In this document: one piece after another, positions 4,536 to 52,965 of the stretch
How positions within the stretch are numbered: the first letter of the stretch is position 1
Layout of the letters: each line of letters opens with the position of its first letter
From: Chrysophaeum taylorii
Taxonomy: Eukaryota > Sar > Pelagophyceae > Pelagomonadales > Pelagomonadaceae
NCBI GenBank assembly: GCA_029834535.1
Contig: JAQMWT010000167.1
Coordinates: 62,001 to 126,000, forward strand
Reading direction: 5' to 3'
Length of the DNA: 64,000 nt
The notes under the pieces: generated by a model
The model's input: only the letters and a program-made list of their open reading frames with translations
Told to the model about the DNA's origin: nothing
Database searches by the model: none
Program-made: the position numbers and the translations under genes

Positions 4536-4782
4536 TAACTAACTAACTAACTTCAGACCTCTCCCGAGCATGGGAGCCAGGCCGGACCGACAGGAGCCAG
4601 TCCGGAATCACGGGCCTGTAGACGAGGAGCGCCGAAAGGTCGGTCGGCGGAGAGTGACCATCAAGCTTGTCGCAATGCGACGAGGAGACCGCGATGTGAC
4701 TGACAACCAACTCGTCGATAACCTTCCGTCTTCGCCCCCCGGCCATACCCCGTCCCACTGCGAACGTTCCGGCTGCCAACCA
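4536..4782 (-). mobile_element. SINE-like retroposon with (TTAG)n tail, minus orientation
   Basis: This 247-bp copy is the reverse complement of the element at 7045-7297. Its tail reads (CTAA)n on the plus strand. It is flanked by a 12-bp target duplication TAGATACGGTTC at 4524-4535 and 4783-4794. The head lacks about ten bases found in the 7045 copy, so it is slightly 5' truncated. The tail-proximal sequence can form two hairpins (CCGGAC/GTCCGG and CTCCC/GGGAG). Target duplication of variable length plus a simple-repeat 3' tail points to target-primed reverse transcription. I saw no clear tRNA A/B boxes, so the RNA of origin is unknown. Confidence 0.75.
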
Positions 4783-4902
4783 TAGATACGGTTCATGGAT
4801 GAAATAATCGCCGACCCAGTCGATGGAACCGAACTTAAAGAATCCTAATAAACAAATATATGGGAGTTATTAGTTTGTTAGGCGTTTTTTGGCATGCAAT
4901 TT

Positions 4903-5569
4903 TGCAGAGAAATCTGCTGCCTCTTACCCTTATCCGTCCGTTGAGAACGTGATCTCTTCCTTACCCTTCTTCTTCCTTTCTACACAATCAAATAGTCCTC
5001 TGACAAGTGCAGGCCAGTAAGTTCACCTAGTCCCAATCTCTAACCCCAGTAAGTTCACCTGGTCCCGTTAAGTTCACCTAGTCCCAATCTCTAACCTCAG
5101 TAAATTCGGCGTAAACCCACTCGTGCTCACATCCACTCACCCCACTCTCATTTGAACTCGTCGCTCTCACCCCCGCCAATCTAAGCTGCTTTGATCCGCA
5201 CACGCCGCTAACCTTTGAGTTTACTCTAAAAACCCAAGTAAGTTCGCTTGGTCTCAGTAAGTTCGCCTGGTCACTAAAATTCACCTAGTCCCAATCTCTA
5301 ACCTCCGTAAGTTCACCTGGTTCCAGTAAGTTCACCTGGCCCCAGTATCCTCTGATTTGTGCCTACATTCATCATCATGGTCTAGCGCGTCCCGAGGTAT
5401 GTAGCACTATACACTTTACCTTTCTCGTGTAGTTCTAGATGCCGCCTGTCGTGTTCTGAGGATATAGGGAACATACCTTTTCATTCCCCGAATTAAATAC
5501 TTCCAGACGTTCATGATGAGACGGGATGGTTTCCCAGGTGACTTACCACTGCCTGCTAAATGCTCTGCA
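4903..5569 (+). repeat. 5' LTR (contains a nested insertion)
   Basis: It matches the 3' LTR end to end and carries the 7-bp terminal inverted repeat TGCAGAG/CTCTGCA. The copy is 667 bp because a 344-bp element (5004-5347) plus an 8-bp duplication lies inside it. The ancestral LTR is 315 bp. Confidence 0.95.
5004..5347 (-). mobile_element. non-autonomous insertion related to the 31.5-34.6 kb helicase repeat
   Basis: The insertion is flanked by an 8-bp target duplication TCCTCTGA (4996-5003 and 5348-5355), and the 3' LTR supplies the empty site. Its reverse complement matches the noncoding ends of the three tandem units at 31.5-34.6 kb: repeated AGGTGAACTTACTGG motifs, a middle block with AAAGCAGCTTAGATTGG, and the same terminus CCTGCACTTG. 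It contains no coding sequence. An 8-bp duplication is not expected of a canonical Helitron, so the mobilising enzyme is uncertain. Confidence 0.75.
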
Positions 5570-5583
5570 GGTTATGGGCCCAG
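5570..5583 (+). other. primer binding site, initiator tRNA-Met anticodon arm
   Basis: The bases directly after the 5' LTR, GGTTATGGGCCCAG, are complementary to the anticodon stem-loop of eukaryotic initiator tRNA-Met (which reads CUGGGCCCAUAACC), not to a tRNA 3' end. Copia elements are known to prime from a half-tRNA cut in this arm. The position and the 14-base match make this assignment strong. Confidence 0.85.
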
Positions 5584-7044
5584 GCGGGTCCCTGAGAAAC
5601 CATGTGTTAAAACGTGCACGTAACCTATGGGTATTGGGTCGTTACCGCGCCGACTCAGCCTCGCCACGTAAACACACTTGTAAATACAACGCCATTACCA
5701 TTGGGCTGTATATAATACTTTTTTGCACACGTGATCGTGTAACCTTGTGTGCACCTGTTCATAGCATCGTATTGTCATGTCAATGTTGATGTGTGTGTAA
5801 TTGGCTAACCTGTACTCTTGCACACATGTTATGGAATATTTTGGGTACGTCCACTCGTACATTCCATGGCAATGCACTTAACAAGCTCCTTGAGAGCACC
5901 AAAACTAACCAGCTGCCTGAGTGACTACGCTTAGCGACACTACTCTGGACTCACAGCTTGCACAGTCGTCAAATAGACATCTTTCCATCGAAAACGATGA
6001 GTGTACATAGACACCGATAGACAGACCCCCTTAGAATGTCTAGACAGTGTCAACTGCGTGACTGAACCCACAGGTTCCCCGTCAACTGCTATGGCAGAAC
6101 ACGCAGCACGAGCCGCACCCAAGGCGATCACAGGTGCAGATATATTGAAGCTCGAAGCTCCTGTAGTTGAGTTTCTTAACGATGGAAATCGATTTCAGCT
6201 TCAGACTCGCAAGGTATCCTTGCAAATCAAACACATTAAGCAATTGTTGCGGTCCAGTCATGCCGATGCATTCCTCGAGTACGACTCGTACGAAGCATAT
6301 ACTCGGTCATGCAAGGACTACGAGATCCTCCGGAATCAAATTCTCGATCGCGTTTTCCTGGAATGGAAGACCGATAGGGCTGCTGATCTCCGTTTAGCTG
6401 TTGATGAATTGCCCCCTGAGTATCAGGAATGTCATTTCACCAACGAAGCTTTCCCCCACTTACCTGATGCAGAAGTATCTCGGCTAGCTACTGTCTGTTA
6501 CGACTATGAAGTCTAGGCATTTCGTCCTGAAATCAATGCTCGTTTCTAAGAAGAGGAACGAATCTTAAATCGCGCGCACCCGAAGGCACTAGCTTTCGAC
6601 ACCCGTGTTCGTGCCCCTGTTACCATGTTTTCGTTAACTGCTGCTGACTGGCACACTTATCAGAACACGTATGCTACGTTCTTACATACTTACTTCAATC
6701 TTGAAAGTGTTGGAAAACCGGCACTTGCGGCCTGGCCCGCCATCAATGAGGTATACAACAAAAGTTATTTACCCAACAAGGCTCGAGCTATTATGCTCAT
6801 CGCCTTTAGTCGCTACGAGTCTGTTACGACTACTGATGTGTCCTATTTGAAACAGCAATTTAACTCTGTTGTTTATAACCCTAACTGGTATGTCCATGTA
6901 TTTATCGAAGCTGTCCTAGCATTTAGGCAAATCTCTTACCAACTTAACCAGGAAGAGACTGACCTTCAATTCGACCTTGGCACTCTTTGTAGAAAAATCT
7001 ATGAAGAGATACATCGGCATTATGCCGATAATACCAGCAACAAC

Positions 7045-7297
7045 TGGCGGGCCGGTTGGCAGCCGGAACGTTCGCAGTGGGACGGGGTATGGCCGGGGGG
7101 CACAGACGGAAGGTTATCGACGAGTTGGTTGTCAGTCACATCGCGGTCTCATCGTCGCATGGCGACGAGCTTGATGATCACTCTCCGCCGACCCACCTTT
7201 CGGCGCCCCTCGTCTACAGGCCCGTGATTCCGGACTGGCTCCTGTCGGTCCGGCCTGGCTCCCATGCTCGGGAGAGGTCTGAAGTTAGTTAGTTAGT
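7045..7297 (+). mobile_element. SINE-like retroposon inserted in Gag
   Basis: A 253-bp insertion with a perfect 13-bp target duplication TACCAGCAACAAC at 7032-7044 and 7298-7310 and a (TTAG)3-4 tail. It is the most complete copy of the family in the window, starting TGGCGGGCCGGTTGG. It disrupts the Gag frame and so postdates the retrotransposon insertion or arose in a source copy. Confidence 0.9.
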
Positions 7298-8066
7298 TAC
7301 CAGCAACAACCGTTACGATCGTGGTTGGGTAGATTGGTGTTATATGTACGAAACCCGATCTTCATCTCGGCCTGTGCCAGAAGCTGAACGATTGTGTCAC
7401 CCTACCAACCCTAGCTACATTTTAGAATACTCATTAGACCTTTACAATGCAGTATCAAATGCGTCGAACAAAAGACGCTTAGAACGCCCTGTTTCTTGGC
7501 AACCATATGTCGAAGGTTTATCATCTCAACCAATGCCAAAGTTACTACTTACAAACACTTTGGACTCATCAGACAAAAGTCTGGCTCAAACTGCTAGCAC
7601 ACTCGCCTTCATCACTTCGTCCCAACATGGTACACCTTCCACGTTTAATGCTAGACGCTTGCGTAACTCTAATGATGCTCGCCAGCCTTTCTCTCGCAGC
7701 GATTTATCGTATTATCGTCCTGGTGATTCTTACGTCACCAAGAAAACTGCCGGACAGTCCCATGACCGTCCAATTTACCCCCGCACTTTTGACAGGTCCT
7801 CTCGGTCTAACATGAAATTATTAGATCGAACAAACCACACCTTAAACACCCTGCGAGAACAGTGTAGTGAACTTACGAAGCATGTGACAGATAATGATAC
7901 CACGGCTCAGCTACAACAGAATATCAACAAGTTATTTGAGACTCTATTACAATCAGCTGACATTCTGTCAACGACATCTACTGAGGACAACAGTAGTTTA
8001 CTTCGTCTAAACGAACAGCTCATGTTTGCAGAAGACATCATTTGTGATGTAGACGTTCATCTATCC

Positions 8067-8090
8067 TCGACCGAAAAGTCGTTAAACTAC
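8067..8090 (+). other. candidate polyprotein cleavage site 1 (STEKSLNY)
   Basis: First of five octapeptides with the pattern xT(E/A)xSLNY. It lies at the Gag/protease boundary in the Gag frame. See the finding on these sites. Confidence 0.6.
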
Positions 8091-8826
8091 GTGGAGCCAC
8101 AACACCATACTGTTGTTACTGCTCCCACCCCAAAGGCAACTTCTCCTACTACAAACACACAGGGTAATCCTTCCAGTACTGTGCCTAACCTCTTTACCGC
8201 TTCCGCCATCTCGGCTTTACCACCAGCATTATTGTCCTCGCTATCTTCACAGGCCCAATCTGCCCTCAACACACCATCACACGCCGAAACCAAAAGGGGT
8301 GCCGATCATACTTCGCTATCGTCATTTGATGAAAAGCACGGCATGGCTGATGAGGCTGGCGAAACATCACCACCTGTTCAACCGATTATTATTCCAACGA
8401 ATCTGTTATTGCTGAAGAACTTCTTCACAGCCAGCCTCTCCGCTACTTGCCCACATTCGGAAAACGCCTTCCTCACCAACTACATGAAGGTAAACAGTGT
8501 CCCTCCACATTGCTCTTTTCTATATTTTGACTCTTGTGCTACATTGATTTCCATTTACGATTTTGCAATACCCAATCATATAATTCCATTGGATTCCGAA
8601 TATGCGCCGATTGTTATTCAGACGGCTACAGGACAACAACGATACCATGAAAACAGGGATCTACTGGCATACTACAACTACCTACTCCAAAGAGTTTTAC
8701 CAGATCGCCCGTGGATTCGCCCTTTGGTTCTCAATCTCCCGGAAACAGAACAAATTTGTTCAGCAAAATACGCAGCCATTAACTTTACTTTCACGCCCAG
8801 TGTTTCTCTCACAAGAGCCCAATCTT
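8091..8826 (+). pseudogene. retropepsin-like protease region
   Basis: A proline/serine-rich linker is followed by FLYFDSCATLISI (about 8512-8556), which aligns with the copia protease active site (aspartate then S/T-G-A-S/T). The usual glycine is cysteine here, a single G-to-T change from GGT, so catalysis is doubtful in this copy. A later PIVIQTATGQ stretch fits the flap region. The reading frame stays in phase with Gag and is then lost near 8.76-8.84 kb, where the methyltransferase continues in the next frame. This may be a programmed frameshift or an indel. Confidence 0.6.
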
Positions 8827-10725
8827 CGCAAACCCCCTGTCATGTTACTTTGTTCTGGTTTGTCAACTCCAGCGTTCCTGTCTCAAGCCACTAGTGACTT
8901 AGGCTTAAATATCAATGTAAAAGTTGTTGTTGAGTCTGATGATACGCTTTTTCGTATGTTACGCCACCGTTTTCCTACTGTATTATTATTTGAATCTCTC
9001 CCCGCCTTTATTAACCACCTTTACCTAATCTCACCAGAGGAAAGGCGCACATTCTATTGTGATATAATTGAGATCACTCCTCCCTGCACAAACAGGAATT
9101 TACTAAAACAGCATAAGACGGCAGACTTACACAGCCTGCTGGACGACTCTCTTTTCGACAGCATGTTGTCTGTCATCAAGCTACTCCAGCCCTTGGTACT
9201 ACTGGCTGAGATGACGCCTCCGCATAAGTACTGTCATCAAGACCACATCACAGTGGCCAACCTTATCCATACTACACTTGATTACTGTGTCGATGTTGTT
9301 GATAGGCTCCCGACCTACCTCTGTGGCGACTACCAATCTAGAGAAAGATGGATATGCATCGCACGCAGATATTCTACTGGACCAATTAAACTATTGTCGT
9401 GGCCCATCCTCCATCCACGCCCCTTCCTAAAGATAGTGGATGATCTACAAGCTATTCCCAAGCGCCTTTGGCTACCTAAACACGTATCCAAAGACTGGAT
9501 CCGGGTGTTCCCCGATCCTCCATATATCCCCGTTCCTAAAACGTTTGCACCTTACTCTCGCACAGGTTCTGCTCAGCTTACTATGGCTGACCTTGAATCC
9601 CTCAATATGTTACTGCTTCGCCTTCACTCACAACAGGCTCACGAACAACGTACTCACTCTGTTCAATCCGAGTGTACTTATCATCAGTTGTGCTTTAAAC
9701 GCTCCTCTATGGAGCCACTACCCAATGCACCGCATCCTATACACGTCAAGATTTTTGCATTCTTCTATAACTTGTTTGCCAGCTTACACACTAACTCACC
9801 CACTCCTGTGTCCTATTACATAACCGTTTTCGAAACTAACCAACCGTCACACAGGTTATTACTTACAACCTCATCAACATCACACAACTCCTACTTCTTA
9901 ACTGGTGGCCACCATTCCGACGGCAACCTCACCATAGAGAACGCCACCACCAAACATCAAACTCCCATCAACGCCTTTGGAAGCACGTATACGTTCACTG
10001 CTTCCGACATCCCCCGCGACCGGGACAGGTCCATATATTTGGAGCCGTTTATGGGTTACTTGTGGATAGTCCAAGCCCTTCCCCAAGTTGGCTCCGCTGC
10101 CACCTATGGCACCGCCATACAAAAACTCTTGTCCAGATGCTCTCTTGTGATGCCTGGCTGCCTTACCTACAAGGCCACCGACAACTCTTTCGATTACAAG
10201 GATTCTCATTTTGCTCTGGAAGATCACCACCTATCTCATAGTCGCTATATAGGGTACCTTCGTGGAAGTGACCGCAAACTCGGCTCTAAAATCCACTCAA
10301 TGCTTGCTCCATTGCCAACCGTCCGAGGGTATGCCAATATTATTTTACTCGACCCTCGCAACGGAAAATTACGCTACCCCACTCGACCGGAGTTGATTCG
10401 TGCTAACAACCACACCAAACAACAGGAATCCTTCCTCTTGTCTCTACGCCATGACCTTTGCTGTGACATGCTCAGCAATGCTCTGCCTGCCGGTACGTAC
10501 AGCACTCTGTACAAGCACCTTTCGCTCCTCGTTGCCGATATTAAATCCCTTATGTTGGACCCTACCTTCCAACATACTGCTGCCGTGACTAAGAAATCCT
10601 ATGTATCCAATTTCATGACCGTTAATCAAGCTTCCACCACGTGCAGCACAGATACCTTGTCTTTGGCACAAGCTTTTATGATGTCTATTTCCAGCAACTG
10701 CTTGACCGAAATGTCGTTAAACTAT
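8827..10725 (+). CDS. cytosine-5 DNA methyltransferase domain of the retrotransposon polyprotein
   Basis: This open segment lies in one frame between the protease and the second SLNY site. C5-methyltransferase motifs appear in order and at the normal spacing. Motif I is a degenerate LLCSGLST (8843 on); motif II is VVVESDD. Motif IV is ITPPC with the catalytic cysteine at 9085-9087. Motif VI retains the glutamate (LLAEM, GAG at 9208). Motif VIII is QSRER (9334-9348) followed by WICIARR. Cys-to-Glu is 41 residues and Glu-to-QxRxR 42, close to M.HhaI. The glycine pair of motif I is partly lost (G-L-S). Motifs IX-X are not clear; a QVGSAATYG segment near 10.09 kb is a candidate. The product would methylate cytosine in DNA. 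Retrotransposon-borne DNMTs have been reported in dinoflagellates and charophyte algae. Confidence 0.8.
10702..10725 (+). other. candidate polyprotein cleavage site 2 (LTEMSLNY)
   Basis: In frame with the methyltransferase segment. It separates that segment from an acidic linker and the integrase. Confidence 0.6.
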
Positions 10726-12273
10726 ATATCTTCGTCCTACGAAGATACTCTCGTTACTCGTGATGATGAGGATGCACCTCCAAGTGACCCTGCTGCGCAC
10801 CAGGATGACGACGCACCGCCTTCCCCTGCCTTAGACACCGAACTCAAGTTCGATGTTCGGCGCAAACGGCACATTCCCGCTCATCCCATTCCTCGTAAGT
10901 CCCCTCGCACACGGATCCACCGAATATCTCAATGCCAAAGAACGTGCCAATCGCTTTCGCCGGGTGCATCACTGCCCCGACAACGTCGCTGCCAAGGCCC
11001 CCAACGTACTTGCTCGCCCTGGATTCTCTGCTTCTGACATACCATATCGCGACTTATGCACCGACTGCATCGCACACAACAAGCGCCACCCGCACAAGCA
11101 TTTCAATGCGACCAAGCCTTCTTTTGAGCAAACTCACAAAGCCGGTGAAGTCTGGGCGTGCGACGGCGGCTATGTGACCATCCCATCCGAATGGGGAGGC
11201 TTCACCCATATCATCGTCTTCAAGGAACTCATTTCGAAATTTCTCTTGGTGTACTTTACACGCACCACCAACGCCACGGAGTTCACTCAAGCTCTGGATT
11301 TTGTGTATGACTTCTGTCGTACACAACTCAACGTGCACATGCGCACCCTCTACTCCGATGCATTCAAGCCCTACTTTAGCCAGCACATTACCTCCCCGCA
11401 CCGCGTCGATAAGGGCATTCAACTCATTGCCTTCCCGCCGTACATGCACCATTTTAACTTTGAAGTTGAGTCCGCCATCGGCTTCATCGCCTCCGCCTCC
11501 TCAACTCGCCTTCGTTCTCTCCTTAATGCTCATTATCGTGGTGCCAAGATCGTGGAGCCCGCTATCATGTTCCCATGGGCGGTGATACACACCGTTCAAA
11601 GCTACAACCTTCTCCCGAACGCCACGCTCGAGCGCATTCATCATGCTATCCTGAGTCCGCAACAGCTACCCTACAACCAACTCAACACTCACCAACACGA
11701 TATGCTCAAGATTTTTGGCGCTGAATGTTACCTCCTATTGGAGCCCCATGGACACCACAAGTGGGAACCGTGCCGCCGCAAATATCTATATCTCTGTTGC
11801 GCGTTGGACATGCGTTGTTAGCTCGTCTTCTTCTCCCGCTGCGCACTGACTTACTTGCCCGCTACCCGCACGTCGATGGTTACTTCGCCCACGCCAAGTG
11901 CGCATCCAGCATCCCAGCTGCAACCTTTTTAACTGCTGATGGTTCACCTGCGTGCCCTATTCCTCAGCCCCTTTTATCTGCGTTCACTGAACACGCTGCT
12001 GCCTTCGGCACTTCTTCCTTACAATATGCGCTTACGTACCTGGCGCCGACCAGCTTTATTAATCACAGCTCATCCGAGTTTGGCGCTACTTCTGCATCTC
12101 TGGCTGACTTGGAGGAATACCTTCTGGTCTCAACAGAGTTTATCACCCAGGTCTTACGTACCGACCCTACTATCCATATCCAACTGGAATCTGCCCCTAC
12201 TACTCCTACTGACGCTGTTTCCGCTTATCCCGAAGTTGCGCACACTGCCTCGACCGCAACGTCGCTAAACTAT
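10726..12273 (+). pseudogene. copia-type integrase
   Basis: An acidic linker leads into a frame change near 10.87-10.93 kb, after which the integrase runs to a stop at 11821. An N-terminal HHCC-like zinc module is visible (VHHCP, then DLCTDC). The catalytic core has the first aspartate in WACDGGY, the second in LYSDAF and a glutamate in FEVESAI about 36 residues later, as expected for a D,D-35-E enzyme. The C-terminal part (ECYLLLEPHGHHKWEP) matches the copia integrase tail. The frame then shifts again near 11.8 kb into a linker leading to reverse transcriptase. It would insert the cDNA with the 5-bp duplication seen at the element ends. Confidence 0.8.
12250..12273 (+). other. candidate polyprotein cleavage site 3 (STATSLNY)
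   Basis: Located at the integrase/reverse transcriptase boundary, in the reverse transcriptase frame. Confidence 0.6.
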
Positions 12274-13956
12274 AATTCACCAGCCATTGTTGGTCCTGAC
12301 GAATATAAGGTCCAAGAAGCGGACGTTTCCATTGACGAATATAAACTTAAGTGCCTCCACGGTTTGTCGCCTGAAAACAGGCACGCCTACCTCAAGGCCA
12401 TCGCCAAGGAACTCCACGACATTATCCGCTTTGGCTGCTTCAAACTTTCCTTACCCGACGGTGTCTCTCGTCCTATTGACAGCAAGATGGTGCTGAAGAT
12501 TAAAACAGACTCTGCAGGCAAATACGTTACGCACAAGGCTCGCCTCGTACTACGTGGCTTCCTAGCATCTCTTGGCGCCGATTTCTTTGGTACCTTCAGC
12601 CCCATGGCCACCATGACCGCAATCCGGGTACTACTAGCTATTGCAGCATACAAGCAATTGCCTGTCTACCATGCAGACGTCCCGAACGCCTTCGTTCAGT
12701 CTGACATCGATGCCAAATGTCTAGTTCAGTTACCAGACGACATCAAGCTTATCGACCCCGATGACGCTAAGTACAAGGGCCGACGTCTACCGAAACTGCT
12801 GAAGTCACTATATGGACTTCGGCAATCACCATCTCTTTGGAACAAAGAGATAGACGGCTTCTTCCGTAGCCTTGGCTACAAACGCCTGCATTCGGACTCT
12901 TGCCTATATGCTCGAGTATCCGCACATGCTAAGTTCGTCGTATGCAGTCTGTCTGTAGACGACATTGTTATTGTGTCCAATGACGACCCTCTTCGTACTG
13001 AATTGCAGGATGCCCTCAACAAACGGTATGCTGTAGAGCAGTTTGAACCTGTCCATACCCTCCTTGGCAAGCTGGTGTTCATGCAAGTTGCCTGCAGACC
13101 TGACTTCTCGCAAGCCTTGGGCAGATGTTCACGTGGTATGCATGCACCCACGTATGCTCACGTCCAAATGCTAGAACACCTGCTCCGCTACCTCAAGAAG
13201 CCGGAAAACCGCTCACTTCGCCTCTGGTTCCATCCTAAAGGTAATGCCATTGAAGCTCACCTTCGCACTGTCTCCGCTAATCGAATTGATCTATCCACTG
13301 TGGTCGACTACCAACCGCTGGATGTATCTACTGGAGAGTTTGATCCCTTAGTTGCCATGGTTGACGCTGACAATGCCCCTTCCTTAGCACAGGAAGATAG
13401 GAAATCTACCACCGGGTTTGTCTTCTATCTTTTCAACTGCGTTATTGGTCGGAAAAGCAAACGTCAACCGATTGTCTCCTGCTCAACTCACGAAGCTGAG
13501 TTGATTGCCCTCAGTATTTGTGCTGATGAAGCTGTTTGGCTACGCAAGCTGCTGTTGGAACTCTCCTTTGTCGTCAACCCCACCTTCTACGTCAATAATG
13601 CTAATGGTGAGAACACCGCTGACCCTGTTGACTTCGATGACAATGACAACCCAATTGCTGAAGATATGCGCTTCATCAGAAGCCTACCTCTTTTGTCTGA
13701 CAATGCTGCCGCTGTTCACACCTCTAATAACCCAGATGGGTCCTCTCGATCCAATGCACTGTCGACCAGATGGTTTAAAATCCGTGAGTACATCTCGCTA
13801 CAGAAAATACGAGTCCATCATGTTCCCGGCAAGCTGAACGTGGCGGATGGTTTTACAAAGCCACTTGCTGCTGAGTTCTCCACCTTTCGCTCTCTACTCG
13901 GTATGCATCATGCCTCTGACGACAATCCTTTACAGGATTGAAGATGCCTAACCCTA
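12274..13956 (+). pseudogene. copia reverse transcriptase and RNase H
   Basis: The RVT_2 signature is clear: HADVPNAFVQSDID (first catalytic aspartate), SLYGLRQSPSLWN, then SVDDIVIV where copia normally has YVDD. Shortly after (FEPVHTLLG), about 80 residues of the usual thumb/connection are missing and the frame jumps straight to KLVFMQVACRPDF, an in-frame internal deletion. RNase H follows with AMVDADNA, the KSTTGFVF segment, STHEAELIAL, SDNAAAVH and the terminal NVADGFTKPL motif. The ORF stops at TGA 13939-13941, but the same frame continues through the fourth SLNY-type site. Because of the YVDD change and the deletion this copy is probably inactive. Confidence 0.85.
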
Positions 13957-13980
13957 GTGACCGCAACGTCGTTAAACTAG
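13957..13980 (+). other. candidate polyprotein cleavage site 4 (VTATSLN, last codon now TAG)
   Basis: Found downstream of the RNase H stop in the same frame. The tyrosine codon of the other sites is TAG here. Its survival suggests the ancestral polyprotein read past RNase H. Confidence 0.5.
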
Positions 13981-15288
13981 CAAACTAGCCCTGACCCTTC
14001 CTTCTTTTGCCACAATTTTTTGTACGTGTCGTGTGAGTGTCGCTCATGTCTTTTTCTTGGCACTCCCGTGGCCGTGGCCGTGGCATCTCTCCAGTCGTTC
14101 GAAGGACAATTCCACGCTCGCTTTCCACGGCCGAGCCTTCTCCCAAGTTGTCTCAAAAGCGACAACCCATAACCACTGTCACTCCTGCTACCTCCCAGGC
14201 TGCTACTGTCTCACCGACACCAGCTGAACATATTTTACTACAATCCCTAACACTCCAGGATGGCCTCAACATGGATTTTGCCCTGATTGAACGAGGACTC
14301 TCTCTCTCTGAGAACTTCCGTACTCCTGCTACTCCCTTTCTCTCTTCTTTTATGCGAGCGGAAATCTCTACGGCACTCAACTCGATCTATGAATCTGCGG
14401 ACTTCTCACTGTTTGTGGAACTAACAACATTCATATCCATGCGCCTACCCATTACTACATTTTGGGAAGCTGCTCCTGCTATTGCTTCTATTGGCTGCTA
14501 CAGAGGCCCCAAACGTGAACGTTTCATTCTGTCATCCTACTGTACGCAATGCCTCAACGATTTGGGGCAACCTACATTTCTTGCCTCCACTACATATAAT
14601 TCGAAGTCACAAGCACCTAGTGAACCCCCCACTGAAGTGCTGAGTCACCTCAACACAGATGACCTCAAGAAGAATGGTCACATTCCCATCTCAACTATCA
14701 CCATTAACATTTGTTGCGCTTGTCACAACACCGATCAGGTGCCCATACAACCTATCGTATGTGCACGTAATGCTACTTCCTTCCAACCCCCCTGTGATGG
14801 GTGCTCAGCTGGTCATATACGCGCAACCATCATACGCACGTATCATTTGCCAAGGGAGCTACATACTCTCTTGACTAGCAGTCTAACGCAATATCCGTCA
14901 CTTGCTCATTTAGTCTTATCAATAACCGATGCAGCCACATACTCCACCACTCAACTGCCATTCGCACTGGATCTTCGGCTTATTACTCAGATACACCTGG
15001 AGCATCTTAACTTTCTTGTAACTGTCGTGCGAACCCAGGCTCGTAAAACTCAGGCTATGTTCAAACCCACCAAATATCATCATGTGATTAATACTTTTGT
15101 CCAATCGTGGGCACAACACCTTTGACGACTACGTATCATCCTCAGATGATACAAAGCCGCCATCACTCTTGGATGTAATGTTCGGCCCCACCTATACTCT
15201 GGCAGAACATCAAGACTTTCTGCAATTTCTAAACACAAAATACCCCCTACTTGCACAGCATGTGTTGACCGAAACGTCATTAAACTAC
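13981..15288 (+). pseudogene. accessory 3' region: cysteine-rich, putative zinc-binding protein
   Basis: After a frame change near 14.0 kb a 350-residue frame runs to 15125 and then shifts once more near 15.1 kb, ending at the fifth SLNY-type site. A basic Arg-Gly-rich start (HSRGRGRGIS) is followed by cysteine pairs YCTQC, CCAC and PPCDGC with neighbouring histidines, consistent with one or two zinc-binding modules. No transmembrane helix or signal peptide is present, so it is not envelope-like. I do not recognise the family. Copia elements normally end at RNase H, so this region is an addition. Confidence 0.55.
15265..15288 (+). other. candidate polyprotein cleavage site 5 (LTETSLNY)
   Basis: Lies between the cysteine-rich protein and the coiled-coil protein, in frame with both sides after the shift near 15.1 kb. 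Confidence 0.6.
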
Positions 15289-16029
15289 TCACTCCCCACA
15301 TCAGAATCTACTCTGGAAATGTCTTCGCCATCGACACACCCTGCTCCTTCTGCCTCGCCTGATGATGTCGATGCCTTGCGTCAACAAGTCGAGCAACTCC
15401 AGGAAACTCTTCGCCTACATATTCGCAAGGTCAACACCCTCAGCGCTGAGAATCTATCTCTGCGCACAGATCTGCAGGCTGCCATTGCTTCAATTACCTC
15501 CCTGGAGAACCGGCTCTTTCCTCCTACAGCCAATGCACACGTGTTGCTCGTAACACTGTTCAAGATCACAGAGCTACTGTCTCGCTTAACTCTTACAGCT
15601 CATGACCAATATGCCGCCAACCATTCCTCCCCGGACGATCACCTCCATCGTCTGCGTGATAATTTGCTCTCGTGTATTCAAAGCATCCCCTTCGCATGTG
15701 AATAGGAAGATTCTTCTATCTTCTCGGATCCGTTCGCTGAGTCCAACTTCTTGGAAAATCAACTGGACACCCTAAAACTTGACTCACTAGTGCCATCCCT
15801 ACTGAATGCTTTACTTGCACTCACGTTTCGTATGGTACCACACCATTCTGCTATTGGTGTTCACCACCTGACAGCAGAAGCTGACGAAGAAGATACCGAT
15901 ACCCTCGAACCAGTAACGATGCCCACCACCTCAGATAGCCGCAACACACTGTCTGTTGTACCTGTGTTTCGTAATGCTCTGTTTAAAAGCGTCAAGTCGA
16001 CTCTCAACTCCACCAAGTTCAAGTCCTAA
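15289..16029 (+). pseudogene. accessory 3' region: coiled-coil protein
   Basis: In one frame from the fifth SLNY site to TAA 16027-16029, interrupted by a single TAG at 15703-15705 that is one C-to-T step from CAG. Residues encoded by about 15370-15520 form a leucine-heptad coiled coil (ALRQQVEQLQETL, then LRTDLQAAIASI). The remainder is acidic and serine-rich. No known domain was recognised. A structural or oligomerising partner for the element's particle is possible but is inference. Confidence 0.5.
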
Positions 16030-16184
16030 GCCCTAAGACACCCTACTATGCTCTTGATGCTTCTTATGTGACCTCTGCGACCATCAAGACTGTATGCTCC
16101 TTCCCTTTTTTTGTTTTCTCCTGTTTTCATCATCATCTTTCTCAAGATATACTCTTCAGTCGCACCTTGCGCTTAAGACATCTC

Positions 16185-16191
16185 GAGGGGG
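16185..16191 (+). other. polypurine tract
   Basis: GAGGGGG immediately precedes the 3' LTR, the expected site for plus-strand priming. Confidence 0.8.
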
Positions 16192-16835
16192 TGCAGAGAA
16201 ATCTGCTGTCTCTTACCCTTATCCGTCCGTTGAGAACGTGATCTCTTCCTTACCCTCCTTCTTCCCGGCCGTCCCGGAGTGAGACGGTGCCTGCTCGCCT
16301 CCCTGGCTGGCCGGTTAGCACCCGGAAAGTCCGCGCTGGGATGGGGTTCGCTCGGTTGGGCAGAACGCGACGGACAGGTCGATTGTTCGTGGACCAACAC
16401 GTCCGCGGCCTGCGACGCTTTCGCACGACCTCGCACAAGACCGCGCGCAGTGGCGGTCCACCATCAACAAGTCCGTCCTCGTCCCTCGCCTCTGCCCCAA
16501 CTGCGTGATTTTCCTCTGTGATACCGTACCGGCTCCTGCCGGTCCGGCCTGGCTCCCATGCTCGGGAGAGGTCTGAAGTTAGTTAGTTAGTTCCTTTCTA
16601 CACAATCAAATAGTCCTCTGATTTGTGCCTACGCTCATCATCATGGTCTAGCGCGTCCCGAGGTATGTAGCACTATACACTTTACCTTTCTCGTGTAGTT
16701 CTAGATGCCGCCTGTCGTGTTCTGAGGATATAGGGAACATACCTTTTCATTCCCCGAATTAAATACTTCCAGGCGTTCATGATGAGACGGGATGGTTTCC
16801 CAGGTGACTTACCACTGCCTGCTAAATGCTCTGCA
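16192..16835 (+). repeat. 3' LTR (contains a nested retroposon)
   Basis: A 644-bp copy of the LTR. Subtracting the nested insertion (325 bp plus a 4-bp duplication) gives 315 bp, exactly the repaired 5' LTR length. It is followed by the target duplication AATTT. Confidence 0.95.
16266..16590 (+). mobile_element. LINE 3' end or SINE/LINE chimera with (TTAG)n tail
   Basis: A 325-bp insertion in the 3' LTR with target duplication TTCC (16262-16265 and 16591-16594). Its last 75 bp or so and the (TTAG)n tail match the SINE family at 4536 and 7045. Upstream, one frame reads HDLAQDRAQWRSTINK, like the extreme C-terminus of LINE ORF2 proteins. The insertion could therefore be a 5'-truncated copy of the autonomous LINE whose 3' end the SINE borrows. 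Near its start it also shares CGCCTCCCTGG with the fragment at 61559, which would favour a composite. Confidence 0.65.
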
Positions 16836-16916
16836 AATTTCGAGTAGTTTGTAACCCAAATAATTAAAGCATGCACGCCCTTTCACCGGCAACCGGACGT
16901 TGTCGTCGACAATACG

Positions 16917-31550: not shown

Positions 31551-32605
31551 AACTACTAATCGACAGATGTTTGTCTGTCTGTCTGTCTGTTTGTTTGTTT
31601 GTCCCTCGATTTAGGGTAAGGATCAGGTTGGCGCGAGAGTAAGGATCAGGTAGAAGCGAGAGCCAGACAGTGATCCTCCAAGCCGTCTACGGCGACCTCG
31701 CAGACTATTTCCACGACCCGCGGCGGCTCTTTCAGCGCGCCATTCTCACGCCCCGTCGAAACGATGTTGTCGATGCTGACAACGCGCGCATGACCGCGGC
31801 CTTTTTTTCCCGAAGACGAGGCGTCGGAGTTCTTTTCGGCCGACTAGGTTGGGTCGGAAGCCGACGCCTCGCTCTTTACAGTCGAGTTTTGAACTCCCTG
31901 ACAACCAACGGCATGCTGACTTTGATCGCGAGCTTAAAGTCTTCGCAACCTCGACCCGTCGCACGGCCACTGCAACGGTACCAGATACATGATCGATCGT
32001 GTCGTTGTCACCGAGGCTCCTCCAACCTGTATCCCGTAAGGCCCGCCGACGCCAAACGATCACCAAGAGCCAGGGCCAGACGCCCCGCGAGGTCGGCGTC
32101 CTCTTGCCCAAGCCCGTCTTCTGCCACGTCCAGCTCTACGTGGCTCTCTGTCGATCGGCAACCCCGAGGAGATATACTCTTCTGGGTCGACGACTCCACC
32201 CTACCACACGTGCTGCGCAATACCGATAAGCCCCCTCCCGGCGTCTACACGCGCACGGTAGGTGAACTTACTGGACCAGGTGAACTTACTGGGTTTGAGA
32301 TTGGGACTAGGTGAACTGGTGACCAGGTGAACTTACTGGACCAAGTGAACTTACTGGGGTTTTTAGAGTGAACGCAAGGGCTAGCGGCGTGTACGGATCA
32401 AAGCAGCTTAGATTGGCGGAGGTGAGAGCGACGAGCTCGAAGGAGAGTGGGGTGAGTGGATGTGAGCACGAGTGGGCTTACGCCGAACTTACTGGGGTTA
32501 GAGATTGGGACTAGGTGAACTTACTGGGACCAGGTGAACTTACTGGGGTTAGAGATTGGGACCAGGTGAACTTACTGGCGAACTTACTGGCCTGCACTTG
32601 TCCTA
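31551..32605 (+). repeat. tandem helicase-element unit A
   Basis: First of three direct repeats beginning AACTACTAATCGACAG, then (GTCT/GTTT)n and two GTAAGGATCAGG motifs. About 31670-32230 is a broken C-terminal piece of a PIF1-family helicase: an AILTPRRNDVVDADN frame, then after frameshifts ELKVF and INKSQGQT...VGVL.PKPVFCHVQLYVAL. The last 340 bp hold many AGGTGAACTTACTGG motifs and end CCTGCACTTGT. PIF1 domains of this kind are typical of Helitrons. Confidence 0.8.
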
Positions 32606-33596
32606 ACTACTAATCGACAGATGTTTGTCTGTCTGTTTGTCTGTTTGTTTGTTTGTCCCTCGATTTAGGGTAAGGATCAGGTAGGCGCGAGAGTAAGGAT
32701 CAGGTAGGCGCGAGAGCCAGACAGTGATCCTCCAAGCCGTCTACGGCGACCTCGCAGACTATTTCCACGACCCGCGGCGGCTCTTTCAGCGCGCCATTCT
32801 CACGCCCCGTCGAAACGATGTTGTCGATGCTGACAACGCGCGCATGACCGCGGCCTTTTTTTTTTCCCGAAGACGAGGCGTCGGAGTTCTTTTCGGCCGA
32901 CTAGGTTGGGTCGGAAGCCGACGCCTCGCTCTTTACAGTCGAGTTTTGAACTCCCTGACAACCAACGGCATGCTGACTTTGATCGCGAGCTTAAAGTCTT
33001 CGCAACCTCGACCCGTCGCACGGCCACTGCAACGGTACCAGATACATGATCGATCGTGTCGTTGTCACCGAGGCTCCTCCAACCTGTATCCCTTAAGGCC
33101 CGCCGACGCCAAACGATCAACAAGAGCCAGGGCCAGACGCCCCGCGAGGTCGGCGTCCTCTTTCCCAAGCCCGTCTTCTGCCACGTCCAGCTCTACGTGG
33201 CTCTCTGTCGATCGGCATCCCCGACGACTCCACCCTACCCCACACGTGCTGCGCAATACCGATAAGCCCCCTCCCGGCGTCTACACGCGCACTATAAGTG
33301 AACTTACTGGGACCACGTTGAGATTGGGACGGGTGAACTGAAGTGACCAGGTGAAACTGGGACCAGGTGAACATACTGGGGTTTTTAGAGTAAGCTTTAG
33401 AGTAAACTCAAAGGTTGGCGGCGCGTGCGGATCAAAGCAGCTTAGATTGGCGGAGGCGAGAGCGACGAGCTCAAAGGAGTTGGTGTGAGCTAGGTGAACT
33501 TACTGACCAGGTGAACTTATACGAAACTTACTGGGACCAGGTGAACTTACTGGGGTTAGAGATTGGGACTAGGTGAACTTACTGGCCTGCACTTGT
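32606..33596 (+). repeat. tandem helicase-element unit B
   Basis: Second copy, 991 bp, same order of microsatellite, broken PIF1 helicase piece (about 32720-33290) and AGGTGAACTTACTGG-rich end. It is shorter than unit A because of a small deletion in the helicase part near 33215 and one in the end block. It shares the frame-breaking TTTTGAACTCC sequence with unit A, so the helicase was already dead when the units multiplied. Confidence 0.8.
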
Positions 33597-34627
33597 AACT
33601 ACTAATCGACAGATGTTTGTCTGTCTGTCTGTCTGTCCCTCGATTTAGGGTAAGGATCAGGTAGGCGCGAGAGTAAGGATCAGGTAGGCGCGAGAGCCAG
33701 ACAGTGATCCTCCAAGCCGTCTACGGCGACCTCGCAGACTATTTCCACGACCCGCGGCGGCTCTTTCAGCGCGCCATTCTCACGCCCCGTCGAAACGATG
33801 TTGTCGATGCTGACAACGCGCGCATGACCGCGGCCTTTTTTTCCCGGAGACGAGGCGTCGGAGTTCTTTTCGGCTGACTAGGCTGGGTCGGAAGACGACG
33901 CCTCGCTCTTTACAGTAGAGTTTTCAACTCCCTGACAACCAACGGGATGCTGACTTTGAGCGCGAGCTTAAGGTCTTCGCAACCTCGACCCGTCCCACGG
34001 CCACTGCAACGGTACCAGATACATGATCGATCGTGTCGTTGTCACCGAGGCTCCTCCAACCTGTATCCCTTAAGGCCCGCCTACGCCAAACGATCAACAA
34101 GAGCCAGGGCCAGACGCCCCGCGAGGTCGGCGTCCTCTTTCCCAAGCCCGTCTTCTGCCACGTCCAGCTCTACGTGGCTCTCTGTCGATCGGCATCCCCG
34201 AGGATATACTCATCTGGGTCGACGACTCCACCCTACCCCACACGTGCTGCGCAATACCGATAAGCCCCCTCCCGGCGTCTACACGCGCACTATAGGTGAA
34301 CTTACTGGGACCACGTGAACTTACTGGGGTTGGAGATTGGGACTAGGTGAGCTGAGTGACCAGGTGAACTTACTGGGACCAAGTGAACTTACTGGGGTTT
34401 TTAGAGTGAACGCAAAGGCTAGCGGCGTGTACGGATCAAAGCAGCTTAGATTGGCGGAGGTGAGAGCGACGAGCTCGAAGGAGAGTGGGGTGAGTGGGTG
34501 TGAGCACGAGTGGGCTTACGCCGAACTTACTGGGGTTAGAGATTGGGACTAGGTGAACTTACTGGGACCAGGTGAACTTACTAGGGTTAGAGATTGGGAG
34601 TAGGTGAACTTACTGGCCTGCACTTGT
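33597..34627 (+). repeat. tandem helicase-element unit C
   Basis: Third copy, 1,031 bp, with a shortened (GTCT)n. The helicase fragment (about 33715-34290) has the clearest terminal motif, INKSQGQTPREVGVLFPKPV. It ends with the same CCTGCACTTGT terminus before unrelated sequence. More substitutions from units A and B suggest it diverged earlier. Confidence 0.8.
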
Positions 34628-51306: not shown

Positions 51307-52102
51307 TCAGCTCCCCTCGTTTAATTTTATTTGTCTCAACTTCCCTGCTCCAAAAACGACGATAACAATAACAAAAGAAACAACAACAACAACAACAACA
51401 CCCCTCTCCTCCGCTTGCGCTCGCGAGTCTGCGGGGACACCCGTCATGCTGAGCTATCTCATACCCTGGCTGGGGCCATGAGGCGGTCATCATCATCGTC
51501 ATCATCATCATTATCATCAAGAAGCAGACTACGCATGGGTTTCTAGAAATACACCAGATTTTCTTTTAGCCTCATAGGACGATGCCGCCCCGCGAGTAGA
51601 CAGCCGCGCGTGATTCGTGTAGAATCTAGTAACGCGGCCAAAAAGAACAGTGTTCTCGGGCACTGGCCTTTGCGGGCCGGTTCGCGCACCGGTGCAGCAA
51701 GTATCGCGCCAGATCATTCGTTGTGTTCCGCGCAGGGCGAATGGATGCGCCTCGTGTGTTTCGTTCGGTGCTCGTTCGTATTTTTTATGTGGCCCTTCAC
51801 GCTATGGGAACGACGTTGGGCTGGTGAAGAAGGATCGGCCCAGGAGCGGTATAAACCGTCCAACTCGCACAAGGCGACCAGGCAAATGCGGATTCCAGCC
51901 CCAAGAAGTTCCAGAGGATATACCCCCAGGGGGGATTTCGGCACACTCGTTTGATATAGGAAGACTCGCAGGTAGGAGATTCTCAGCACATGCCTGACTA
52001 CTGGTGACCACTACCTCACGAGGGGAATAAATGACTGAGCGGCCATCCGCTTCATCTGACTCGCCACCGGGAAAAGCGCACACGCATAGGCGCTACGGCT
52101 CT
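51307..52102. other. convergent intergenic region
   Basis: Between the CLPTM1 and Lhcr stops. It holds an (AAC)n tract near 51380-51400, a (CAT)n tract near 51488-51520 and otherwise nonrepetitive sequence with no recognised ORF. Confidence 0.5.
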
Positions 52103-52763
52103 TCAAAGTGGGATGTTTTCGAGGCATGGCTTGTGGGTGATGACACCCTGGAGAATCATGCCGGCAGCTGCCCACATCGCAAGGCGACCGTTGGCGATTT
52201 CCTTCATGGCCATGTCTTCGGTGACCTTGAAGCCGATAGGGTTGAAGCCCCAGTCCCCGGGCGCGCGCTTGCCAGTCTCGCGACCTTGCGTAATTGCTAC
52301 ACCCATGATGATCTCGACGATTCCGATGACAAGGAAGGCAGAGGTGATGGCGTTCGGGTGCTCGTCCCACGCGTCCCAGAATACCTACAAACGTGTCATC
52401 CCGTCGCCCCGGAACATGACGTACATCCATTTGCGAGCGGCCTTCGGCGAGCGGCCAGCCGGGCAGAGGGCCAAAAATTTCAACGAAAAGGATGCCCGCC
52501 GTCGCGAGCATGGCCACACGGCCGTGCTTGATTTCGGCCTCGCGCATCCAGTAGAGATCGATTCCGACGTCGTCGATCTCGGACAAGCCCAACGGATCGA
52601 ACCCCACGTCGCCGGCCATAGTACCGTCGAGAAGCTTGGGCTTGGTGAGGAAGGGCAACGCCTTAGACATCTCCGCCGCGCGGACCGTCAGGGCCTGGCC
52701 GCCATTCGGGGTCGTCACGAACCCATAAGCTGCCGGGAGGAGGAGGAAAGCCAGCATCATCAT
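52103..52763 (-). CDS. Lhcr-type chlorophyll a/c-binding light-harvesting protein, two exons
   Basis: Exons on minus 52763-52425 and 52384-52103 (206 aa), intron 40 nt (GTACGT...TTGTAG), phase 0; splicing joins GRSQMD to [10 protein letters not shown]. The leader [16 protein letters not shown] is a bipartite plastid signal with an aromatic residue at the junction. Helix 1 carries the chlorophyll-binding motif [14 protein letters not shown]. Helix 3 has the matching [38 protein letters not shown] and APGDWGFNP are typical of the photosystem-I-associated Lhcr group of red-lineage algae. Three membrane helices are expected. Confidence 0.92.
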
Positions 52764-52965
52764 TTGCGGTCGGCCGGTCACACACACGCCAACAAAGATC
52801 GCTTCAAGCTAATTCCTTACCCTTGCTTCAACCGGATCTCGCTGCAACATAATGACGTCATGAGTCTCTCCTTACTTACCCTCGCCGCTTGTTGTGGCAT
52901 TGGGATTGCGTCATCACCTCAACGTACACGACACAGAGCTTCGTTGCACACGCCGCGGACGCCCG

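Follow-up and report, generated by a model that had tools for sequence, protein, structure and literature searches.

The question raised by this locus is whether a retrotransposon of the alga Chrysophaeum taylorii carries a cytosine methyltransferase of its own and, if so, what such an enzyme would do for the element. It arose from the window, i.e., the whole stretch of 64,000 nucleotides analysed here, where a sequence-only reading had placed a C5-cytosine DNA methyltransferase (DNMT) inside a copia element, after the protease and before the integrase. That assignment was supported from three sides: by a profile, by relatives of the element and by selection. The reading had seen both the domain and its place, but it missed that the window copy is defective, that its relatives contain a UGA codon, and that further DNMT-bearing elements, here designated family B and class C, are present.

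The retrotransposon in the window

A single LTR retrotransposon occupies positions 4903-16835 of the plus strand. Sequence comparison revealed a 5-bp target-site duplication, AATTT, on both flanks (4898..4902 on the left and 16836..16840 on the right). The left LTR (4903..5569) runs from TGCAGAG to CTCTGCA and has a repeat-rich insert inside, at about 5011-5347; the right LTR (16192..16835), which shows these ends as well, has an insert at approximately 16266-16590 and is preceded by the purine-rich run CGAGGGGG. Next to the left LTR lies a putative primer binding site, GGTTATGGGCCCAG (5570..5583), which we take to resemble the site where Drosophila copia is primed by the anticodon arm of tRNA-iMet. 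The features found, i.e., LTRs of the TG..CA type, the target duplication, the primer binding site of presumed identity and the polypurine tract, are those of Ty1/copia structure. The element was assigned to Ty1/copia because an integrase core (rve, 11135..11383), a weak match below the Pfam cut-off at E 0.0011, is situated upstream of a copia-type reverse transcriptase (RVT_2, 12451..13074, Pfam E 3.8e-37).

The N-terminal part of Gag (6625..7227), delimited by comparison with L063, a related copy of what we call family A, gave no Pfam match and is split by a short insertion (about 7050-7299). The remaining Gag together with a protease-like region (7344..8737) was assigned by position and by the motif DSCAT at about 8530, spotted by eye; a Pfam protease match was absent from both the window element and L063. 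Then follow the DNMT domain (8833..9786, residues 78-395 of the translated frame P0001) and, between DNMT and integrase, a region designated domain X (9802..10848), which has a collinear counterpart in family B. All of these features lie on the plus strand. The window copy is defective: gag carries an insert, approximately 110 residues of the protease-like region that relatives have are missing, after which the copy leaves the frame, and there are frame changes between Gag, DNMT, integrase and reverse transcriptase. Since a 222-nt LTR stretch is 98.6% identical at both ends of the element, the insertion appears to be fairly young.

Several other observations were made in the window. Two additional ORFs, 14037-15125 and 15097-15705, are found between the reverse transcriptase and the right LTR; the former had no Pfam match, the latter weak coiled-coil-like Pfam matches. 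A short SINE-like element, roughly 250 nt long and ending in (TAGT)n, occurs at 4536-4781 (reverse), at about 7050-7299 and partially at 16518-16592, i.e., one copy lies inside gag of the retrotransposon and part of another inside its right LTR. The copies at 4536-4781 and about 7050-7299 are 96.7% alike, with target duplications of about 10-12 bp each. The tandem-like repeat AAGTTCACCTAGTCCCAATCTC is common to the left LTR (5018-5349) and to 32259-34627, in reversed orientation and 27 kb off. A near-identical pair of ORFs, 31670-32314 and 32724-33341, approximately 1 kb apart, represents a local duplication.

A divergent methyltransferase domain

Residues of motifs I, II, IV, VI and VIII were found where the sequence-only reading had placed them, and its spacing, Cys-41-Glu-42-Gln, gave the same values on re-measurement. 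The extent it had proposed, 8827..9500, held at the start, which we set to about 8833, but not at the end, since the domain continues beyond 9500 to 9786. Motif I, the AdoMet loop, is divergent: MLLCSGLSTP (8842..8871) is aligned to it in profile alignments with one Gly left of FxGxGG and the GxGG core absent, and MAFFT aligns the stretch differently. Alignment identified a motif II-like VESDD (8929..8943) and motif IV PPC (9079..9087), which holds the catalytic Cys by alignment, a residue invariant in the aligned family-A copies. The Glu of motif VI (9208..9210), in AEMT instead of ENV, and motif VIII QSRER (9334..9348) are placed by alignment and spacing. Two further motifs are tentative, namely motif IX, AQLTMADLE (9571..9597), proposed from spacing and comparison with B and C, which did not align to motif IX of the reference DNMTs in the tree alignment, and motif X, LPNAPHPIHV (9718..9747), from alignment with references. 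All motifs are on the plus strand. In a MAFFT alignment with eight public DNMTs the window domain had 15-23% identity, and C85, P120, E126, Y151, Q168, R170 and R172 were among the 12 invariant columns. When the 749-aa frame was shuffled 300,000 times, the PPC/E/QxRxR pattern at family spacing came up in 10 of the shuffles, and the pattern had no other occurrence in the six frames of the window; the spacing patterns were adjusted by eye, family by family.

The full 749-aa frame P0001 (8602-10850) had no Pfam match, and a piece of it matched PF00145 at E 0.31. The 338 aa of the window's own domain gave no PF00145 match at E<=10, and among 20 family-A copies only three did (best 0.0026), the other 17 having none. 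Because the matches to Pfam were this weak or missing, the domain was tested without Pfam, using a profile made from eight public PF00145 DNMTs, host DNMT2 and host DNMT5, with zero element sequences. The eight public DNMTs came via the class-C profile search and are thus not a random sample of DNMTs. With this profile the frame 8602-10850 ranked first among 528 window ORFs (six-frame, stop-to-stop, at least 60 aa) with E 1e-5, the runner-up having 0.14, and the alignment spanned motif I to VIII. All family-A copies tested, 19 of the 30 fetched, the remainder being short or with stops, outscored the best of 3000 shuffles (top score 25.5 versus 6.4 bits). Hence the profile search suggested in the sequence-only reading succeeded with the purpose-built profile, while Pfam alone was not significant.

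Other searches added little. The family-A profile had seven matches in PDB up to E 10, none of them a methyltransferase; residues 78-500 of P0001 found nothing in the protein database at E<=0.001; and the viral contigs searched with A, B and C yielded nothing at tblastn E<=1e-3. A single-sequence structure model of the window domain, with pLDDT 33, was set aside. Also set aside was a phage search with host DNMT2, which returned 12 records with far DNMTs.

Family A and selection on its methyltransferase

A search of the 70.8-Mb assembly with P0001 gave at least 68 matches, with 60 of 1796 candidates scored. After merging by eye these represent at least 59 family-A elements besides the window one. 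Two places, L028 and L029, contain one element copy at near-equal distance from the ends of contigs C10 and C297. These contigs are probably allelic or duplicated, so copy counts for family A may be inflated.

Relatives have longer frames than the window copy, with the gene order Gag - protease-like region - UGA - DNMT - domain X - integrase - reverse transcriptase. An RVT_2 match was located 2.1-3.5 kb downstream on the same strand in at least 18 of 59 family-A places, counted among the best 150 RVT_2 matches. The count used 51 of these 150 places, picked by eye on contigs with A or B plus a few others, and covered 59 A places and 55 of 56 B-like rows (C64:56451 was missed).

The alignment of family A comprised 20 of 30 loci, the window included; seven loci with stops in the domain and three without the domain start were excluded, and L023 was kept although its domain start is missing. 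C85, E126, Q168, R170 and R172 were invariant in all 20 copies. Loss of PPC and QxRxR in relatives had been named beforehand as evidence against a methyltransferase; the relatives retain both. In motif VI, the Glu is kept throughout (20/20), with EMT or EMA replacing ENV.

A separate estimate of selection drew on 22 family-A copies, split 5 to 17 between the subfamilies, and on B copies numbering 13 for the DNMT and 9 for domain X. Between the A subfamilies, the dN/dS of the DNMT was 0.116 (5 x 17 copies), another estimate reaching up to 0.161. Inside windows around motifs I, II, IV, VI and VIII it was 0.033 and outside 0.132, and since the value is lowest in the motif windows, the active-site motifs are under the strongest constraint. 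The integrase region gave 0.243 (3 x 15 copies), a value that may include decaying frames. Domain X, of approximately 350 residues, is likewise under purifying selection, with dN/dS between subfamilies of 0.18 in A and 0.23 in B, and had no Pfam match in the A and B frames carrying it.

A UGA codon ahead of the methyltransferase

In family-A relatives, an in-frame UGA closes the Gag-protease frame some 20 codons ahead of motif I; beyond it the reading frame resumes unchanged through DNMT, domain X and integrase, as seen at full length in L063. The codon was found in 26 of 28 readable copies among 29 fetched besides the window; UGG replaces it in L028 and L029, the near-identical places on two contigs. 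In the window copy the UGA codon is missing. We infer that ribosomes may read through the UGA of the relatives. Among 14 copies inspected at the DNA level, 10 have CUA as the next codon; in some viruses UGA-CUA is prone to readthrough. No conserved RNA structure was detected after the UGA in four family-A copies (z about 0). A stop codon of this kind is known from Tca2 of Candida albicans, a copia-type element. According to the abstract of PMC2194720, Tca2 has a UGA between gag and pol, and its flanking sequence alone gave no readthrough in yeast; unlike for family A, a DNMT is not mentioned there.

Host methyltransferases, family B and class C

The genome was also searched with PF00145, giving 124 matches; none of the listed family-A places was among them. 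Two are host genes, L031 encoding DNMT2 (human DNMT2 structure 1g55, E 7.7e-39) and L032 encoding DNMT5 (7r76, E 3e-143). They belong to the C5-methyltransferase family, as the element DNMTs do, but are genes of the host, which is a photosynthetic eukaryote since a PF00504 protein is encoded at 52011-52787 of the window. Motif I of host DNMT5, MCSGTEAP, is non-canonical, a trait shared with the window element.

In another 56 rows the match spans motifs II to VIII, as is usual for family B. The 28 fetched ones all match the family-B DNMT, some with stops. In L047 and L073 the order is a protease-like region with DGGAS, then DNMT (PCQ, ENV), domain X and integrase (rve, E 0.0017), all in one frame; the open frame comprises 1952 aa. 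In the 13 of 28 fetched loci that were aligned, PF00145 was found in every copy (best 2.9e-10), ENV is present in 13/13, and the catalytic Cys and the Glu are invariant, whereas QxRxR is lost. The dN/dS of the B DNMT was 0.116, with 0.054 in motif windows and 0.135 outside, from only 2 x 11 copies. No RVT_2 was found within 8 kb of 55 B places among the best 150 RVT_2 matches; from the position of the integrase and the likeness to A we regard family B as copia-like. A search of the protein database with the family-B profile gave nothing at E<=1 among the 8000 scored.

The other 66 PF00145 rows mostly match motif I. Nine places inspected (10 rows; L061, L062 and L066-L072) carry a DNMT of class C, whose motifs depart less from the canonical form than those in the window element. 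Where the DNA extends that far (L061, and L062 with L064), this DNMT is preceded by a region called protease-like from its position only and followed by an RVT_1 reverse transcriptase; RVT_1 is found in L062, and farther downstream on the same contig L064 has RT_RNaseH_2 and rve (E 3.9e-6, below cut-off). Because RVT_1 is followed by RNase H and then integrase, class C is Ty3/gypsy where the DNA reaches the reverse transcriptase. The class has two subfamilies with 37-38% identity, which share FxGAGG (I), Asp (II), SPPC (IV), Glu (VI) and SRxR (VIII). Five of the nine loci were aligned, and in these PLT (IX) and VPP (X) are invariant and PF00145 was matched in all copies (best 1.1e-9). L047 of family B and L066 of class C are above the Pfam cut-off for PF00145. 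The class-C profile had eight matches at E<=10 among 7998 scored in the protein database, all of them PF00145 proteins.

Relationship between the families

Collinearity of families A and B begins at motif I and extends to a region within domain X, about 470 residues downstream. They join in the DNMT tree with support 97/93 on long branches. The window DNMT grouped with no reference, and neither host DNMT2 nor DNMT5 emerged as a clear sister of the element DNMTs, in this small tree whose reference set was devoid of Dnmt1, Dnmt3, Dnmt6 and giant-virus DNMTs.

Direct profile comparisons were weaker. Profile-profile comparison of A with B gave a probability of 1.7 and E 0.029, and A-C and B-C were weak or insignificant. 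With the B HMM the best E against A was 0.0024, and 7 of 19 copies exceeded the best of 2000 shuffles; with the A HMM 4 of 12 B copies exceeded the best shuffle, and a joint B+C profile placed only 1 of 19 A copies above the best of 3000. The DNMT profile placed 11 of 12 B copies (12 of 28 loci tested) above the best shuffle. Because the profile comparisons are weak, kinship of A and B rests on the collinear order of their motifs, on domain X, which both have, and on the tree.

The poor A-B comparison, the full frame devoid of Pfam matches and the failure of the family-A profile to find a methyltransferase in PDB could be taken to mean that the motifs are a chance resemblance within an unrelated Pol linker. 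We consider this extremely improbable, since an independent profile ranks the frame first among 528, selection is focused on the motifs, and clear DNMTs occupy the equivalent place in family B. At the level of sequence, it is confirmed that 8833-9786 of the window encodes a predicted, divergent C5-cytosine methyltransferase domain in Pol of a Ty1/copia element.

Topology tests gave p-AU 0.388 for a single clade of A+B+C, with A+C (0.053) and B+C (0.054) borderline. These values fit two separate captures as well as a single one after which the DNMT passed between copia and gypsy elements. The sequence data are consistent with an independent capture, which the sequence-only reading had suggested. 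A more specific scenario, that copia and gypsy elements took up DNMTs separately, both behind the protease, and that in A the enzyme is dosed and packed via the conserved UGA and marks cDNA, is a possibility that we put forward tentatively.

A possible role in the replication cycle

Family-A Pol would, according to our preferred explanation, begin with a captured C5-cytosine DNA methyltransferase, produced solely within Pol when a ribosome passes the UGA. The enzyme would be packaged with reverse transcriptase and integrase in the virus-like particle, and there it may methylate the fresh double-stranded cDNA, or else host DNA at the target. A new copy would thereby meet the host bearing a methyl mark. 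Delivery into the particle is argued from the position of the DNMT between protease and integrase, and a need for it in the replication cycle from an active site that stays under constraint as the copies multiply. The leading candidate for the mechanism is methylation by the element of its own cDNA. For the whole combination, i.e., a decayed copia copy of family A with a captured DNMT, passage of the UGA, packing into the particle and methylation of cDNA or target, we estimate a probability of about 0.6.

A Pol module that has lost catalysis and is structural, DNA- or AdoMet-binding or regulatory would also be selected, as dN/dS indicates need rather than catalysis. Motif I of A reads CSGLST, ENV is changed to EMT, family B is devoid of QxRxR, and Pfam matches of A are weak. 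We nevertheless find such a loss unlikely: every aligned copy of A and B retains the catalytic Cys and the Glu, and the motif windows are the most constrained. Moreover, motif I of host DNMT5 is equally odd, and DNMT5 of Cryptococcus is reported as active in the accessible text of PMC9998398.

Inserted copies were examined for traces of methylation. An excess of CpG transitions in singletons was absent both in A (13 of 5230 CpG site-copies versus 86 of 24,162 other C/G) and in B (37 of 4709 versus 107 of 13,309), and thus the copies are not visibly decaying as methylated CpG. The CpG o/e of family A is mildly low, 0.83-0.95, with 1.25-1.33 in flanking host DNA. The missing decay speaks against dense lasting CpG methylation, or else for another sequence context or efficient repair; it has no bearing on methylation of cDNA.

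The same absence of CpG decay would suit an enzyme acting on RNA, as DNMT2 does on tRNA. Besides cDNA, the particle would offer RNA and the primer tRNA as substrates at hand, and the putative primer site presumably resembles the tRNA-iMet site of copia. The target of the domain inside the particle would then be the genomic RNA or the tRNA that serves as primer. The sequence gives no specific pointer to RNA, however, and the eight public proteins found with the class-C profile carry PF00145, the two that are named, one from a Chloroflexi MAG, both being DNA cytosine methyltransferases. RNA methylation was raised as an option for SymbioLINE DNMTs in the accessible part of PMC5890265; for family A we hold it to be slightly less plausible than the loss of catalysis.

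PMC5890265 also offers, in the same part, the option that methylation restrains the element through silencing by the host and keeps copy number tolerable. Such self-restraint is improbable for family A, which is abundant, with at least 59 elements besides the window one and 1796 candidates at first look.

Comparison with known elements

Capture of DNMTs by retrotransposons in dinoflagellates and charophytes, to which the sequence-only reading had referred, is indeed on record. The accessible text of PMC5890265 describes DNMTs in LINE and DIRS elements of Symbiodinium and in Gypsy of Klebsormidium, and no DNMT in Copia elements of Symbiodinium. In yeast, SymbioDIRS DNMTs were shown to add CG methylation de novo, and retrotranscribed cDNA was proposed to be methylated (PMC5890265). 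Since LINE, DIRS and Gypsy carriers have been described, the principle of DNMT capture is already known. Family A shows what defines such elements, namely a DNMT in the coding region, many copies and purifying selection.

One of the closest likenesses is to KnitGypsy-Dnmt3 of Klebsormidium nitens, also an LTR element with a DNMT in the Pol ORF and under purifying selection (Ka/Ks <0.2, versus 0.116-0.161 in family A), as far as PMC5890265 was accessible. KnitGypsy is, however, a Gypsy element with a DNMT of Dnmt3 type, whereas the window element is copia with a UGA before the DNMT in its relatives (PMC5890265, same portion). Class C is also Gypsy. SymbioDIRS-Dnmt3 and SymbioLINE-Dnmt share with the present case high copy numbers and several DNMT-bearing classes in one algal genome, but SymbioDIRS, with a tyrosine recombinase, and SymbioLINE are not LTR elements as A is (PMC5890265, same portion).

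PMC12344493 has one sentence in its main text that places DNMT3 members of streptophytes and dinoflagellates in elements called 'LTR Copia' and in DIRS. The source given is de Mendoza 2018, where the carriers are Gypsy, DIRS and LINE elements, and 'LTR Copia' is probably a misnomer; none of the terms Aureococcus, pelagophyte and stramenopile appears in that main text. Elements of the Gypsy and DIRS clades with adenine or cytosine methylases are reported from many lineages including stramenopiles in the main text of PMC6338049, where the methylase type in stramenopiles is unspecified and the word copia is absent. The accessible parts of PMC9998398 (diatom DNMTs), PMC3145265 (a review) and PMC12477816 (Ectocarpus transposable elements) report no such copia elements; the last describes, for a Sola DNA transposon of Ectocarpus, a methyltransferase of another kind (4mC or 6mA type). 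In the literature searched, mostly papers free of subscription, there was no DNMT-bearing copia element from a stramenopile and none with the gene order of A. Within this literature the copia setting with its gene order, the UGA and the co-occurring gypsy carrier appear to be new.

Implications

Retroelement capture of DNMTs had previously been described in LINE, DIRS and Gypsy elements of two eukaryotic lineages. The listed family-A places missing from the PF00145 scan are a warning that DNMT domains of elements can fall under Pfam cut-offs. As DNMT5 is retained, the alga could maintain marks laid by an element. That family B and gypsy elements of this genome show the arrangement too suggests that this host, in which DNMT5 is retained, rewards retroelements carrying a DNMT. 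With copia and gypsy carriers in one genome, it becomes testable what a retrotransposon may gain from a cytosine methyltransferase of its own.
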